Source: Archaeoglobales archaeon (GTDB lineage: Archaea; Halobacteriota; Archaeoglobi; Archaeoglobales; Archaeoglobaceae). From it: a DNA stretch of 47,959 nucleotides. The notes under the pieces are model-generated. The model was not told where the DNA came from. It saw only the letters and a program-made list of their open reading frames with translations, and ran no database searches. The stretch is taken from positions 1-47,959 of the forward strand of contig JASFYH010000013.1 in NCBI GenBank assembly GCA_030055595.1, written 5' to 3'. Position numbers and translations under genes: made by a program. Shown piece after piece: positions 42,219-47,959 of this stretch; the first letter of the stretch is position 1; each line of letters begins with the position of its first letter.

Positions 42219-42297
42219 TTTTAGTTAGAACCAATTAGAGTTTCCCGTCAGCTTTTACTTGGTTTAGGTTTATAAGGATATCGAAATAGGAGATAAA

Positions 42298-42307
42298 TTT
42301 TTAAATA
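42298..42307 (+). promoter_or_regulatory. TATA box of the membrane/PIN-like gene trio
   Basis: TTTTTAAATA centred about 25 bases before ATG 42327. Confidence 0.5.
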
Positions 42308-42326
42308 CAAACTCTTTTTTTGTCTT

Positions 42327-42998
42327 ATGAGGTTCTTTACGATCCTCTTGATCCTATTAATCGCTTCAGCTTCAGCCCAGAAAGTTGAAGAAATAACGAA
42401 TTTGAACCTAACTGTTTTAGTGGACAATAAGGCTCATTTTAAATATGAGTTTACGATCAAGAACCTGATCGATAAGCCACTGGTTCCGGGAATTAGTGAA
42501 ATGAGACTCCAGAAAGTTGAACCAATTAATTTTCTTATTGTTCCCATTCCGTTTACTGAACACAGAAGTGCGGTCAAAGTTGATAATTTGAGAGCTTATT
42601 CTGGAAATATGAATTTCAAAACGAGTTTCGAAGAGAAAGAAGATTATTCCATAATCTATTACGAGATCTGGTATCCAATAGAGCCATACAGCGAGATGAG
42701 GTTAGTATTAGAATTCGATGCAGATCTCGTGGATCAGGGAATCCTATTCAAAAGTGTAACCGTGCCCGTTGGGGGAGATGTGGATATAAGAAACATAAAT
42801 TTAGACATTAGATCTGACTGGAAAACTTGCTACATCGAGCCAAAAGAGCTAAAATCAATTCCGGCGGGTCATTTAGCCTTTATAACTGCAGAATTCTCTT
42901 TGTTGCCATTGCCCATGCTACCGATTAGAGGTTACATACTATTCTGGGGGTTCGTGATCTTAGTTCTGGGAATAGCAGTGGTGTTTAGGAGAAAATGA
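42327..42998 (+). CDS. Secreted, C-terminally anchored membrane protein
   Basis: 223 residues. A signal peptide (ends near ASASA) is followed by an extracytoplasmic beta-rich domain of about 165 residues, then one C-terminal helix and a RRK stop-transfer end. I do not recognise the domain; its first part (NLNLTVLVDNKAHFKYEFTI) reads like an immunoglobulin-like or envelope-repeat fold. The next gene starts four bases before its stop, and both have signal peptides, so they probably assemble together in the cell envelope. Confidence 0.7.
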   Translation: MRFFTILLILLIASASAQKVEEITNLNLTVLVDNKAHFKYEFTIKNLIDKPLVPGISEMRLQKVEPINFLIVPIPFTEHRSAVKVDNLRAYSGNMNFKTSFEEKEDYSIIYYEIWYPIEPYSEMRLVLEFDADLVDQGILFKSVTVPVGGDVDIRNINLDIRSDWKTCYIEPKELKSIPAGHLAFITAEFSLLPLPMLPIRGYILFWGFVILVLGIAVVFRRK

Positions 42999-44407
42999 GA
43001 CTCTTTGCTATCATTCTACTGCTACTACTCGAGATCGCCAATGCCTGTGTGTTGGAGATAAGAGAAACGACTTTTTACGTTAATGGGACTCAGGAAGTGA
43101 GTAGAGACTGGATCGTGGTTAACTTCACGAATGAGTATCCCTACGAGATCTACGATGTTCAGATTGGGGAAATTGCCCAAATGCCCGCAGTTTTACCTGG
43201 ACAGAATGTCAAGATCGATCCATATCTAACTCTTGAACCTATAGAATTCCCAGTAGTGTTTAGGGCAAATTTTGAGGATCTGGGTAGCAAGAGTATAGTA
43301 GAGTATTCTGTGGTAAATCTGGGGGAAGAGCAATTGGAAATTTTAATTTCTTTTCCGAAGTTCGACAGTTTTCTGGGTTGTGAAGGCTGTGAGATCGATG
43401 AACGAATAAATTTTAACCTTTCAGTCTCTCCGAAGTCCTCTAAGAATTTTACAATACATGTAACTCGAAGTTTTCAAATTCCAGATGCGGAAGTGGGCTT
43501 TAAGTTTGTGAAGAGTCAAAACGTGAGTTTTGGCTTAAAAGTTCCAATGAGCATAGAGAAAGGAAACAAAGGTGAATGGATCGCAAGATTTCAAACTTCG
43601 AACCCAATTGACAGAGAAATCGACTTGGAAGTTAATGCTTGGGCAGATCTTTGTGGAAATAGAGTTGAAATTCTAAATGAAAGTATGAAGTTACCGCCGA
43701 AAGGAATTTTTTTGAATTCTACAGAGTTAAAAAGTGCTTGTGTCCCGATCTTCTTCTTCAAAGTCAGTGCAAGAGTAGAAGATCTTTGTAAATTCGAGAT
43801 CGTTCCGAGCTCGCTTATTGGAGGGAGATATGTTGTAGGTTATGCCACTCTAAAGGGACTCTCTTACGCCCCAATGACACCCGCAATACCAAATCCTCCG
43901 ATCGCGGGACCTTTTGCACCCACACCCATAATACCGCCCACAATACCACCTACTCCGCCCCCTCAAGCTCAACCAACTCCAAGCTCATTTACAACTGGTG
44001 TAGAAGTAGAAATTCCAAGTCCAAGGGCGTTAACTTTTGAGATTGCCGTAGTTTATGCAGCCATACTCCCTCCCGCTACATTCGGAGCTTTCTTGGCAAT
44101 GGTCTTTTTCCCGGTTTACAGCAGAAGGGGTATTGTGCTCTCCGGTAGAGATGCAAAAATAGCAGAGAGACTTGCTTTAAAGATAAGAGTTTACACGATC
44201 CCCTCAAATCCTGCAAGGAGAGGAATTTTAGTTGAACCCGATCGAGAGGTCGTCTCGGCTCTTATGTCCGCCGGCTTAGAATTGGAGGATGCGGAGTTGA
44301 TCGCAGTTGCCATAAAGGTTAAAAAGCCAATCATAACAAGAAATCAAATGGCGGTTAGATTTGCGTTATATTGTGGAGTTCCGGTGGTTGGTTATGGAAG
44401 ATCTTGA
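42995..44407 (+). CDS. Membrane protein with extracytoplasmic domains and a cytoplasmic PIN-like tail
   Basis: 470 residues. A signal peptide ends near ANAC. Beta-rich extracytoplasmic domains of about 290 residues follow, with Cys pairs such as CEGC that may form disulfides. Then come a Pro-rich stretch (about 295-335), one membrane helix (about 350-375) and a cytoplasmic tail of about 95 residues. The tail reads LELEDAELIAVAIKVKKPIITRN then CGVPVVGYG, like the C-terminal half of a PIN nuclease fold. It overlaps the preceding and following genes. Function unknown. Confidence 0.65.
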   Translation: MRLFAIILLLLLEIANACVLEIRETTFYVNGTQEVSRDWIVVNFTNEYPYEIYDVQIGEIAQMPAVLPGQNVKIDPYLTLEPIEFPVVFRANFEDLGSKSIVEYSVVNLGEEQLEILISFPKFDSFLGCEGCEIDERINFNLSVSPKSSKNFTIHVTRSFQIPDAEVGFKFVKSQNVSFGLKVPMSIEKGNKGEWIARFQTSNPIDREIDLEVNAWADLCGNRVEILNESMKLPPKGIFLNSTELKSACVPIFFFKVSARVEDLCKFEIVPSSLIGGRYVVGYATLKGLSYAPMTPAIPNPPIAGPFAPTPIIPPTIPPTPPPQAQPTPSSFTTGVEVEIPSPRALTFEIAVVYAAILPPATFGAFLAMVFFPVYSRRGIVLSGRDAKIAERLALKIRVYTIPSNPARRGILVEPDREVVSALMSAGLELEDAELIAVAIKVKKPIITRNQMAVRFALYCGVPVVGYGRS

Positions 44408-44933
44408 TACTTTAATGGAAGAAGTCCTTAGAAAAATGAGGATCCGAGATACGATCTCCGCTGTTCTGATCGCTTCAGCCTTTGTCATATTCGGTCTTCT
44501 CATGCTCGTTCTTTTAGACATTATTTTTGTCGAAAGTGCTCTAAAAAGCACGATCTCTATAATACTCCTGTGCGTGACATGGGCTCTTATGGTTAGTGGT
44601 ATATATATTCTAACCTCTATGCCAATCCCCAAACTTCCTCCAAAGCTCGTTGCAGACTCTTCCGGATTAATTGGGCTTCTTAAGAAAAAATATCCTGGAA
44701 AGATCTATGTATCGAGAGAAACTTTCAAAAAAATCCCACCAGCGGTTGGTCTGAGAGCAAATCTTGAGGTTTTAGATGTAGATCCAGAAGAGGTTAAAAA
44801 ATTTAGCAAATATGGAGAGGAGTTGGCTAATGCAATTGTAGCAGCAAAAAAGCTTAAAGGAAAAGTTGTAAGCTCTGAAAGAAAGAAAGTAGAAGATGTT
44901 GAAGTCATAATACCTGACGATCTTAAAATTTAG
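44394..44933 (+). CDS. Two-helix membrane protein with PIN-like cytoplasmic domain
   Basis: 179 residues. A short charged N-terminus is followed by two membrane helices (about 18-75), then a soluble domain with KLVADSSGLIGLLKKKYP and ELANAIVAAKKLKGKVVSSE. The order VADSSGLI, beta/alpha units and an A..A.KL.GKVV strand suggests a PIN fold, in which the usual acidic residue of the late motif is Asn here, so nuclease activity is uncertain. ATG 44394 follows GGTGG; the frame is open further upstream inside the previous gene. Confidence 0.65.
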   Translation: MEDLDTLMEEVLRKMRIRDTISAVLIASAFVIFGLLMLVLLDIIFVESALKSTISIILLCVTWALMVSGIYILTSMPIPKLPPKLVADSSGLIGLLKKKYPGKIYVSRETFKKIPPAVGLRANLEVLDVDPEEVKKFSKYGEELANAIVAAKKLKGKVVSSERKKVEDVEVIIPDDLKI

Positions 44934-44956
44934 TTTTCTGCAAATACTGCGAAAAG

Positions 44957-44966
44957 TTTATTAAAT
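44957..44966 (+). promoter_or_regulatory. TATA box of the universal stress protein gene
   Basis: TTTATTAAAT centred 25 bases before ATG 44986. Confidence 0.5.
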
Positions 44967-44985
44967 TCACACATTTTTTCTTTTT

Positions 44986-45381
44986 ATGGCGATATTGGTA
45001 GCGTTAGATGAAAAGTCGAAGAGAACGGAAAGGGTCGTTAGTTTCTCGGTTGAGGAGGCAAGATTAAGAAAGGAGAAACTAATTTTTGTGCACTCACTCT
45101 TTGGTGGCGAAAGAACTGAGCAAAAGGAGATCGATGCGGGAGAGGAACTTTTGAAGTGGGCAGAAGAGACTGTGAAGAAGTCAGGAGTAGATTGTGAAAC
45201 AAGGCTCCTTATTAGAGGAAAAGAAGCCGCAGAGGACATAGTTGAGCTTGCAGACGAGATCAAAGCAAGCATGATCGTTATAGGTGTTAGAAAAAGAAGA
45301 CCCGCGGGTAAAGTTTTGTTTGGAAGCGTTGCTCAAGACGTGATTCTGAACGCAAACCAACCCGTTATATGTATAAAGTAG
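44986..45381 (+). CDS. Universal stress protein (UspA) family
   Basis: 131 residues with the alpha/beta UspA fold. ILVALDEKSKRTERVV opens the chain, and VIGVRKRRPAGKVLFGSVAQDVI lies near the C-terminus. In ATP-binding members the pattern is GxxG then nine residues then G(S/T); here the second Gly is Lys, so nucleotide binding is uncertain. Leaderless promoter and its own transcript. Role in stress is family knowledge only. Confidence 0.88.
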   Translation: MAILVALDEKSKRTERVVSFSVEEARLRKEKLIFVHSLFGGERTEQKEIDAGEELLKWAEETVKKSGVDCETRLLIRGKEAAEDIVELADEIKASMIVIGVRKRRPAGKVLFGSVAQDVILNANQPVICIK

Positions 45382-45385
45382 TGGT

Positions 45386-45412
45386 AATATAAAAAATTTT
45401 TTATTTTAACTC
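45386..45412. terminator. Convergent A/T-rich terminator
   Basis: Between the stress-protein stop and the opposing gene's end lies an A/T block (AATATAAAAAATTTTTTATT) that gives T runs on both strands, suited to terminating both genes. Confidence 0.45.
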
Positions 45413-46582
45413 GTCCCACTTTCTCCTCTTCTTGAACCTAATTATGAAATTAATTGTGAATGCTAGCAAAATGATTAGAAACACCGCAATTAAGTAGCCC
45501 GAATAAGCCCTCAATGTTGATATGATGTCGAAACCTCCATTCTCCTTTGTAGAGGAAACTTCGTTAGCCAAATTCTCCACATCGTCCTTTAATTTGTAAA
45601 CAGCACTTTCAATCTTCTTAATTTCCTCGTAAGCCTTTGTGAACTTTTCCTGATCGATGTAATCTTTTATGCTCCGAAGACTTGTTTTTAAATCCTCATT
45701 GGTCGCTTTCAGGCTTGCATACCTTGAGCTCAGGTTTTTAAAATTCTCTGTCCCTCGAAGAGCTTGGATCAGAATTTCCAACTCATTAAGCTTTAAAGTT
45801 GCATTGCTTGCAATATCACTAAGTTTTTTATAAATCTCCTCTGCTCTAAGTTTATCTGCAAGACTTGTTAATTTCGATAAGACATCCTCTGCATTTTTAA
45901 GCTTCTCGTCAGCGGAACCGTAGTCACCCGCATTAAAATCTTTTTCACCAGAACTCAGAAGATTTTCGACATTCTGGAAATCTTTTTCATCGTATTTAAC
46001 ACCCTCAGCATCAAGTTTACTCCTAATTTCGGACAATTTTTGCTTAAGCGAATTTAGAGCTATATTAAATGCTGTTTTGTTCACAACTTTGATCTTTACG
46101 TCTTTTAGAGCATCTGAAGTCGCCTCCTCAGCCCTTGCGATCAGTATACTAATTTCTGAAAGCCTCAATGCAGTATCTGGAACCTTTCCTGTAAGGTTTG
46201 CAGAAATGTAATCAACTCCTTCTCGCCCTTCTTCGGAGATCGAGTAGTATTTAACTTCGATCGTGATAGAAGGATCTTCGAAGTCTTGTTTGACTCCAGA
46301 AACTCCAGCATATTTGATCTCTAAAGTCCAACTTGGATTTAACAACGTCGTTCGGAAATAGTAGCTTCTTGGATTTCCTTGTTCTCCTCCAATTTTTAGC
46401 TTCTCGCTTGAGGTTTTTGGGGATATGATATAATTCACTTGAATTGTATCTCCAGCGAAGAAATGATCTTTTTCCGGAGAAATTTTTATGTCTATGCTGA
46501 AATTAGCGGGAGTTAAAGTTTCCAGAGCTATTGCTGTGTGCATTAGTATTAGGACAATTGTCGCTCCGATTAGCATTCGCAT
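45401..46582 (-). CDS. Secreted coiled-coil protein with C-terminal membrane anchor
   Basis: 393 residues from ATG 46582. A signal peptide (ends near AIA) is followed by an extracytoplasmic beta-rich domain of about 110 residues (SIDIKISPEKDHFFAGDTIQVNYII), a long helical coiled-coil region (about 140-345) and one C-terminal helix with a basic end. This looks like a cell-envelope protein that reaches out from the membrane. A TATA-like TTTTTAAATC lies 25 bases before the start. Family unknown to me. Confidence 0.7.
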   Translation of the reverse strand: MRMLIGATIVLILMHTAIALETLTPANFSIDIKISPEKDHFFAGDTIQVNYIISPKTSSEKLKIGGEQGNPRSYYFRTTLLNPSWTLEIKYAGVSGVKQDFEDPSITIEVKYYSISEEGREGVDYISANLTGKVPDTALRLSEISILIARAEEATSDALKDVKIKVVNKTAFNIALNSLKQKLSEIRSKLDAEGVKYDEKDFQNVENLLSSGEKDFNAGDYGSADEKLKNAEDVLSKLTSLADKLRAEEIYKKLSDIASNATLKLNELEILIQALRGTENFKNLSSRYASLKATNEDLKTSLRSIKDYIDQEKFTKAYEEIKKIESAVYKLKDDVENLANEVSSTKENGGFDIISTLRAYSGYLIAVFLIILLAFTINFIIRFKKRRKWDELK

Positions 46583-46602
46583 GGAAAAAGTTTGCAATAT
46601 AG

Positions 46603-46612
46603 ATTTAAAAAA
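46603..46612 (-). promoter_or_regulatory. TATA box of the coiled-coil protein gene
   Basis: TTTTTAAATC on the minus strand, 25 bases before ATG 46582. Confidence 0.45.
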
Positions 46613-46699
46613 TTTTTCTTTCCCAATACTTTTTCATATTAATGTGTGAATGGAAAATGAAACTAAAATAAAAAATGCATTTTTTGTTTTGAGACGGAG

Positions 46700-46708: not shown

Positions 46709-46727
46709 CTAAAATAGATCCTTGCAA

Positions 46728-47732
46728 ATGCCCGGAGCCGGATTTGAACCGGCGACTATGCGGTCTTCAGCCGTAGAAACCACTAAAACGGAGATTTACG
46801 AGAAAGAAGCCATTAAACCAGAGATAACCGAGACACAATATAAGACAACATATAGCAAGCCAAAATTTGATGACATCGATAAAGAAGACTTTATTAGATT
46901 TTGGACATCGGAAAGAAAACAAAAAACGAATGTTAATCGGGCTCAGAAGTTATATAATGTTCTCAAGAAGGTTCTTAATGGCAAAGAAATAAGCTTAGAT
47001 TCTCTTAGGGAAGGATTCCACAACACAACGAATAAAAAAGATTATGTAAATGCTGTAAGAGTTCTTTTGGATTACCTCAGGAATAGAAAAGTAATTAGCA
47101 GACAGGAATACGAGGATATGCTTGAGGTTGATTTCTTGACTCCGATTAAATCAGAGCCCGAAATAGTTCCAGAAGCTACAAAAGAGGAGGCTGACAAAGA
47201 CATTAAGAAAGCCTTAGAATGGATAAAGGAAAAATGGAATAATGATGAATTTACTGTAAACTTCTTTAAGCTTATAGTATTCAGTGGAATAAGAGATGAC
47301 CATGCCTATAAGCTATTAACTACCTTTGATCAAGCAAATTTGGAAATAAACGAGAAATTAGGAATAGCTCGATATAGAACCATGAAAATAGGAACAAAGA
47401 TTAAAAGGAGTTTTTACGCATTTATGCCTTTGGAGTTTGCAAAGAAGCTTAAACGTTATGAAAACGTCTTAGACCTTTCGACTTATCGGAATAGAATAAA
47501 TCCGAAACAGTGGAAGCCTAAAAAACCTGAATGGCGAAATACATGGATAAATGGGCATAATATAAGAAAATGGTTTCCAAATTTCCTTAAACGCCATGGT
47601 GTAGAGCTGATTTATAGAAAATTCTTTATGGGTCATTCAATCGGGGAAGTCATTGAACATTATGAAAACATTGAACAAAACAGCTGGAAAGAATACGCTA
47701 AAGTTGTGGACAGGTTTCCGATTGAGCCTTAA
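46728..47732 (+). CDS. int: SSV-type tyrosine integrase, C-terminal part beginning in the att core
   Basis: 334 residues from ATG 46728 (TTG 46722 is also open). The first 17 codons (PGAGFEPATMRSSAV) are the antisense of the tRNA-Phe half. A helical core-binding region (about 50-150) follows, then the catalytic domain with Arg189 in SGIRDD, His277 and Arg280 in HNIR, His303 in MGH and Tyr312 in EHYENI. All catalytic residues are present. By SSV logic this is int(C), and the true N-terminus lies at the element's other end. If that is right, the chromosome ends at about 46728 and element DNA runs rightward. Confidence 0.82.
   Translation: MPGAGFEPATMRSSAVETTKTEIYEKEAIKPEITETQYKTTYSKPKFDDIDKEDFIRFWTSERKQKTNVNRAQKLYNVLKKVLNGKEISLDSLREGFHNTTNKKDYVNAVRVLLDYLRNRKVISRQEYEDMLEVDFLTPIKSEPEIVPEATKEEADKDIKKALEWIKEKWNNDEFTVNFFKLIVFSGIRDDHAYKLLTTFDQANLEINEKLGIARYRTMKIGTKIKRSFYAFMPLEFAKKLKRYENVLDLSTYRNRINPKQWKPKKPEWRNTWINGHNIRKWFPNFLKRHGVELIYRKFFMGHSIGEVIEHYENIEQNSWKEYAKVVDRFPIEP
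46729..46773 (-). other. Attachment site: 3' half of tRNA-Phe (GAA)
   Basis: On the minus strand the sequence reads anticodon loop CTGAAGA (GAA), stem base CCGCA, variable TAGTC, T-arm GCCGGTTCAAATCCGGC, acceptor 3' strand TCCGGGC and discriminator A. The 5' half is missing, and pairing of the anticodon stem fails after three bases. A half-tRNA of about 45 bases fused to an integrase gene is the duplicate att core of an SSV-type integration. The intact tRNA-Phe should lie to the right, outside the window. Confidence 0.75.
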
Positions 47733-47860
47733 TTTTTTAATCTTCTTTCTATAAAACCTTTTATTTTTTGAGTTCAGTCTTCTGAAAACGAAAAAGCCTT
47801 TAGGATTTTTATCGGATTGCTTATTTTAAGCTATAACCGCATTCTTGAAGGTGGAAAAGG

Positions 47861-47959
47861 TTAAACTCTTCTCCTATAATAACCCCTTACGTAAACTCTT
47901 CTTCCCTTTACTTTTCGGTAATGTGGCTTAATGTAAACCACATCGCTTGTGATAACGGA
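47861..47959 (-). CDS. C-terminal end of a basic element protein, cut by window end
   Basis: The minus-strand frame is open from the window edge to a stop at 47861-47863, giving 32 residues that end YRKVKGRRVYVRGYYRRRV. The Arg/Lys/Tyr-rich tail with HYRKVKG and VRGYYRRR resembles C-termini I recall from archaeal plasmid or virus proteins of unknown role. Only the end is visible, so no function is given. Confidence 0.45.
   Translation of the reverse strand, partial: SVITSDVVYIKPHYRKVKGRRVYVRGYYRRRV

Follow-up and report, generated by a model that had tools for sequence, protein, structure and literature searches.

The right end of the window, the whole 47,959-bp contig (C4) analysed here, is very probably the left boundary, carrying int(C), of an integrated element with a suicidal tyrosine integrase. 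Integration by such enzymes at the 3′ half of a tRNA gene splits the integrase gene into two pieces, int(N) and int(C) (PMC8371274); here the tRNA is tRNA-Phe. The contig belongs to an assembly of 32 contigs and 1.55 Mb that is 99% complete. The relatives with which it was compared are Archaeoglobaceae.

A half tRNA-Phe opens the integrase gene

The junction is marked by a 45-bp att core (TGCCCGGAGCCGGATTTGAACCGGCGACTATGCGGTCTTCAGCCG), 100% identical to positions 30-74 of the intact tRNA-Phe(gaa) genes of relatives. The match ends at 46774, where the window reads TAGAAACC and the intact genes read CACGCTCT. On sequence grounds, chance is ruled out for an exact match of this length. The preliminary description had reported the 3′ half of a tRNA-Phe with no 5′ half, and the comparison bears this out as a perfect copy; ARAGORN calls no tRNA at these positions. 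The att is thus a tRNA 3′ half, on the side of the SSV and pT26-2 enzymes rather than that of pTN3: pTN3-like enzymes use the 5′ half of the tRNA as att (PMC8371274).

The att site lies within the integrase gene itself, where the core encodes the opening residues of int(C). The reading frame runs through the half tRNA and starts at ATG 46728 (inside the att core), with TTG 46722 as an alternative. Its product matches PF16795 (Phage_integr_3) with E=6.8e-22 and 78.5 bits, against a cut-off of 27 bits, and the integrase family phrog_5127 with E=7.9e-15. The catalytic residues R191 and K228 (window numbering) are kept in all 26 relatives compared; R282, within the motif HNIR, and the nucleophile Y314 are each kept in 25 of the 26. 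The catalytic H305 sits in a GHS motif. With a PF16795 frame and R191, K228, R282, H305 and Y314 all in place, the earlier claim that the half tRNA forms the first codons of an integrase with all catalytic residues holds.

PF16795 marks the SSV, pTN3 and pT26-2 families (PMC8371274). Together with the geometry of the insertion, it is the basis on which we place the window integrase, as a putative member, among them; the pT26-2 family proper is delimited by at least 30% identity over 60% to IntpT26-2. About 30 integrases of the family were found, and nearly all start on or beside half tRNAs, which are of many kinds. When 26 of the family's integrases were placed in a tree, the five at tRNA-Phe (the window's and four others) form one clade with support of 100/99, while nearly all the rest start on halves of other tRNAs. 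Matches in the phage collection reach 28-34% identity only, and the plasmid collection gave a single match, at 26%, to a Pyrococcus abyssi plasmid integrase. Neither the viral-contig scan nor a sequence search of the PDB returned a match. The AlphaFold model of the enzyme is poor, with a mean pLDDT of 54.

Two variants were seen among related integrases. Three of them (L043, L044 and L062) adjoin matches to 5′ halves (positions 1-43 or 1-37) of tRNA-Arg, tRNA-Leu and tRNA-Gly, in the pTN3-like manner. In two more (L040 in G019, L042 in G057) the catalytic part follows the N-terminal part in the same open frame; these are possibly unsplit copies.

Table 1 Features at and around the junction (positions in the window).
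Feature	Position	Strand	Basis or remarks
Chromosomal left flank genes	42297..46633	.	blastp, 64-91% identity; orthologues next to intact tRNA-Phe in G003 and G001
int(C), catalytic part of a suicidal (SSV/pT26-2-type) tyrosine integrase, 336 aa	46722..47732	+	PF16795; phrog_5127; catalytic residues
att core	46729..46773	-	3′ half of tRNA-Phe(GAA), 45 bp, anticodon region to discriminator base; no 5′ half
Linker just after the att core	46803..46858	+	blastn, DNA 84% identical to the G007 tRNA-Gly element
int(C) 3′ end and element DNA behind it	47687..47959	.	blastn/alignment, 93% over 274 bp to the G007 tRNA-Gly element
Convergent element gene, C-terminal end (SVITSDVVYIKPHYRKVKGRRVYVRGYYRRRV), cut by the contig end	47864..47959	-	97% to the end of a G007 ORF

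Chromosome to the left, element to the right

Two genomes of the same genus, G001 and G003, have an uninterrupted tRNA-Phe site without an element. On the 3′ side of its intact tRNA-Phe, G003 carries the full set of the left flank genes of the window (Table 1); at the same place G001 carries orthologues of stress-protein-like 44986-45381 and 45401-46597. Since an intact tRNA-Phe lies next to the same left-hand genes in both, the DNA left of 46729 is chromosome.

On the other side, the comparison is with a complete element of about 15.4 kb in G007, also of the same genus. At one end its int(C) starts on a half tRNA-Gly; at the opposite end its int(N) reads into an intact tRNA-Gly. Its cargo (L150:5595-17702, C1) is a type I restriction-modification system with two methylase genes, an S subunit and HsdR. 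Over its last 274 bases the window is 93% identical to this bounded element, and for this reason the DNA right of 46729 is taken as element DNA. The 227 bases behind the integrase match at 93%, and the convergent gene end corresponds to the end of an 81-aa ORF at the same place in G007; it is also 45% identical to an ORF of the G024 element. The linker after the att core is similar too. The two elements differ in their target tRNA, and their integrases, about 25% identical overall, have divergent cores. Both sides of the junction are therefore as the preliminary description had assigned them, and among the relatives we found none in which the same sequence is uninterrupted chromosome, the observation it had named as contrary to its reading.

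Complete copies in relatives

The SSV-type geometry is complete end to end in two relatives. G010 has a half tRNA-Phe with int(C), an 8.6-kb element and then an int(N) in frame with an intact tRNA-Phe; G022 has the same order around an element of 15.3 kb. They share with the window copy the tRNA, the 45-bp core and the orientation, and their integrases are about 47-48% identical to that of the window; both carry type I restriction-modification-like cargo. In G010, G022 and G007, the in-frame int(N) stops exactly at the att core of the other boundary, and joining the ends of each element yields a single open frame of 432, 432 and 456 codons, respectively. In G040, G007 and G004, an open frame enters the 3′ end of tRNA-Phe in the same frame; those of G040 and G007 match int(N) by tblastn. 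The int(N) pieces look like ribbon-helix-helix domains by eye, a fold that Pfam did not confirm: the best relevant hit, to the BrnA antitoxin, has E=0.098 and falls below the cut-off.

Other relatives carry remains at such sites. In G040 (L131) and G012 (L129), genomes with no match to a tRNA-Phe int(C), int(N)-like remnants adjoin tRNA-Phe, and in G024 (L123) another lies to the left of a half tRNA. These remnants suggest that the same site has been used repeatedly. In G045, two tRNA-Phe cores enclose a stretch of 20.4 kb, and the left copy lacks an intact integrase ORF. This stretch (C19, L121:2743 to L122:3269) encodes HmaA/HmaB/HmaC-like proteins (helicase, methylase, ATPase) and, by eye, HEPN/nucleotidyltransferase-like pairs; we read it as a defence island at tRNA-Phe.

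The closest relative of the window integrase sits on a viral-looking element at L123 (G024:C14, about 1-13.3 kb). That element encodes a HerA/FtsK-like ATPase, together with a 328-aa protein that has homologues in nine genomes of the family, some of them near integrases; a weak match occurs in G014. Neither the ATPase nor the 328-aa protein has a match in the phage collection.

The far end of the window copy

The contig ends 1,186 bases past the half tRNA, and the element is visible over those 1,186 bases only. A pattern search of the assembly, allowing up to 2 mismatches, found no intact tRNA-Phe elsewhere; RF00005 identified 42 tRNAs in the assembly, with no tRNA-Phe among them. Since a cell requires a tRNA-Phe, its absence from a 99%-complete assembly is counted in favour of an integrated element, which would account for the missing gene. 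No int(N) matching the window element occurs in the assembly either. Because the contig stops so soon and the assembly holds no intact tRNA-Phe, the tRNA-Phe and int(N) predicted for the far end cannot be read in this genome. The lack of a second tRNA-Phe copy to the right, which the preliminary description had also named as contrary to its reading, does not count against it here, the DNA on that side being unassembled. The right boundary of the element presumably lies in unassembled DNA beyond 47959.

In G001 and G006, the usual right-hand neighbour of tRNA-Phe is a NAC-like gene. In the assembly of the window, 315 bp separate this gene from the end of contig C1, an arrangement consistent with a gap that contains the element and the tRNA-Phe. 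The join to the chromosome on the right is not a clean one, however: the outer 141 bp of C1 have no counterpart at the tRNA-Phe side in relatives, and something extra is present at the C1 end. C1 was also considered as the direct continuation of the element, a candidate weakened by the same 141 bp, which are unlike the tRNA-Phe side of relatives. None of the element genes of relatives is present on the small contigs C16 and C18-C21.

Model of integration and alternative readings

In the free circle, the integrase gene would consist of a short int(N) (about 76-105 aa in relatives), the att stretch corresponding to the tRNA-Phe 3′ half, and the catalytic part. The integrase would recombine this attP with the tRNA-Phe gene of the host. 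After integration, the left boundary would read chromosome, half tRNA-Phe and int(C), and the right boundary int(N) and a restored, intact tRNA-Phe. The window copy was probably integrated by its own integrase, and its far boundary is probably also present. By analogy, the split enzyme would allow no excision unless a complete integrase were supplied in trans; such rescue by a related, complete enzyme is known for SSV2 and TKV4 (PMC8371274).

The visible stretch is short, and the 1,186 bases could be a decayed remnant: an int(C) end and half tRNA that outlasted the deletion of most of the element, so that nothing functional follows on the right. Remnants are indeed common, with orphan int(N) pieces at tRNA-Met, tRNA-Ser and tRNA-Leu (the last with a stop) in the window's own genome, and broken integrases in G028, G038 and G053. 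Against this, the window integrase is unbroken and retains every catalytic residue, and the 227 bases that follow it closely resemble part of a complete element. We consider such a fossil unlikely.

Since ATG 46728 falls exactly at the edge of the tRNA half and the 336-aa ORF seems complete on its own, the att core might instead mark the true start of the gene, integration leaving the integrase whole in the classical, pNOB8-like manner. The relatives speak strongly against an unsplit gene: in G010, G022 and G007 the int(N) ends at the att core and joining produces one long frame, and the frames entering the tRNA-Phe 3′ end in G040, G007 and G004 include two, in G040 and G007, that match int(N). 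PF16795 is moreover a mark of the suicidal families (PMC8371274), and we regard this reading as highly improbable. Even less credible, by a little, is an artefact of assembly or binning that misjoined an integrase end to the chromosome. The contig does stop soon after the junction, and the assembly lacks tRNA-Phe, but the junction falls at the base expected for integration into tRNA-Phe and lies beside the genes that flank tRNA-Phe in two genomes of the same genus, and the same kind of junction recurs in several genomes. The integrated element with a split integrase is thus the reading we retain.

Relation to known systems

The mechanism is already established and the arrangement well known, a split SSV-like integrase having been described in Archaeoglobus veneficus (PMC4158269). 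The suicidal integrases of the SSV and pT26-2 families share with the present enzyme the PF16795 catalytic domain, an att within the gene that corresponds to a tRNA 3′ half, and the split into int(N) and int(C); within these families closely related enzymes use many different tRNAs (PMC8371274). The target of the window integrase is tRNA-Phe. The pT26-2 integrases listed in the same review include ones from Archaeoglobales (PMC8371274). Provirus ArcVen-P3 of A. veneficus resides in the same host family and has an SSV-like integrase split at both ends of the element, at a tRNA gene; its target is tRNA-Ser, with 55-bp repeats, and its gene content is viral (PMC4158269). The Archaeoglobus pleomorphic (pro)viruses BK065154 and BK065155 share the host family and have a distantly related integrase (28-34% identity), but of a different lineage. 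For AvPV1 the att is 27 bp long and lies at tRNA-Gly, and no split of the integrase is described (PMC10919331). The present case contributes to Archaeoglobaceae a clade of suicidal integrases specific to tRNA-Phe, for which related genomes supply uninterrupted sites, complete copies and int(N) leftovers.

A possible mosaic integrase

One fresh point is the composition of the integrase gene. Between the linker (84%) and the 3′ end with the DNA downstream (93%), the cores of the window and G007 tRNA-Gly integrases are unrelated at the DNA level. The gene thus looks like a mosaic: its core groups with the tRNA-Phe integrases, and the DNA on both sides resembles the tRNA-Gly element. It is possible, though we propose it tentatively from these alignments, that the two elements are recently related and that their integrase cores were exchanged between edges that stayed conserved; the alternative is common ancestry followed by uneven divergence. 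If a swap took place, joint replacement of att and core would have given the element a new target tRNA, a natural example of the chimeric-integrase model, in which targets change by exchange of parts, proposed for Thermococcales (reported in PMC8371274). The likeness between int(N) pieces at tRNA-Met and tRNA-Gly, described below, fits the same model. The copies described here would form a small natural data set on how suicidal integrases change their target tRNA.

Traces of other integrations in the same genome

The genome of the window (G000) contains further int(N)-like ORFs: one at tRNA-Met (C26:18728-18976; L134:1486-1734), one at tRNA-Ser(gct) (C10:28147-28365; L136) and one, with a stop codon, at tRNA-Leu(taa) (C14; L026). 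No PF16795 int(C) matching any of the three was found in this genome, and these orphan ORFs are traces of other integrations. Although the two have different targets, the DNA of the tRNA-Met orphan is 85% identical over 281 bp to that of the G007 int(N) at tRNA-Gly.
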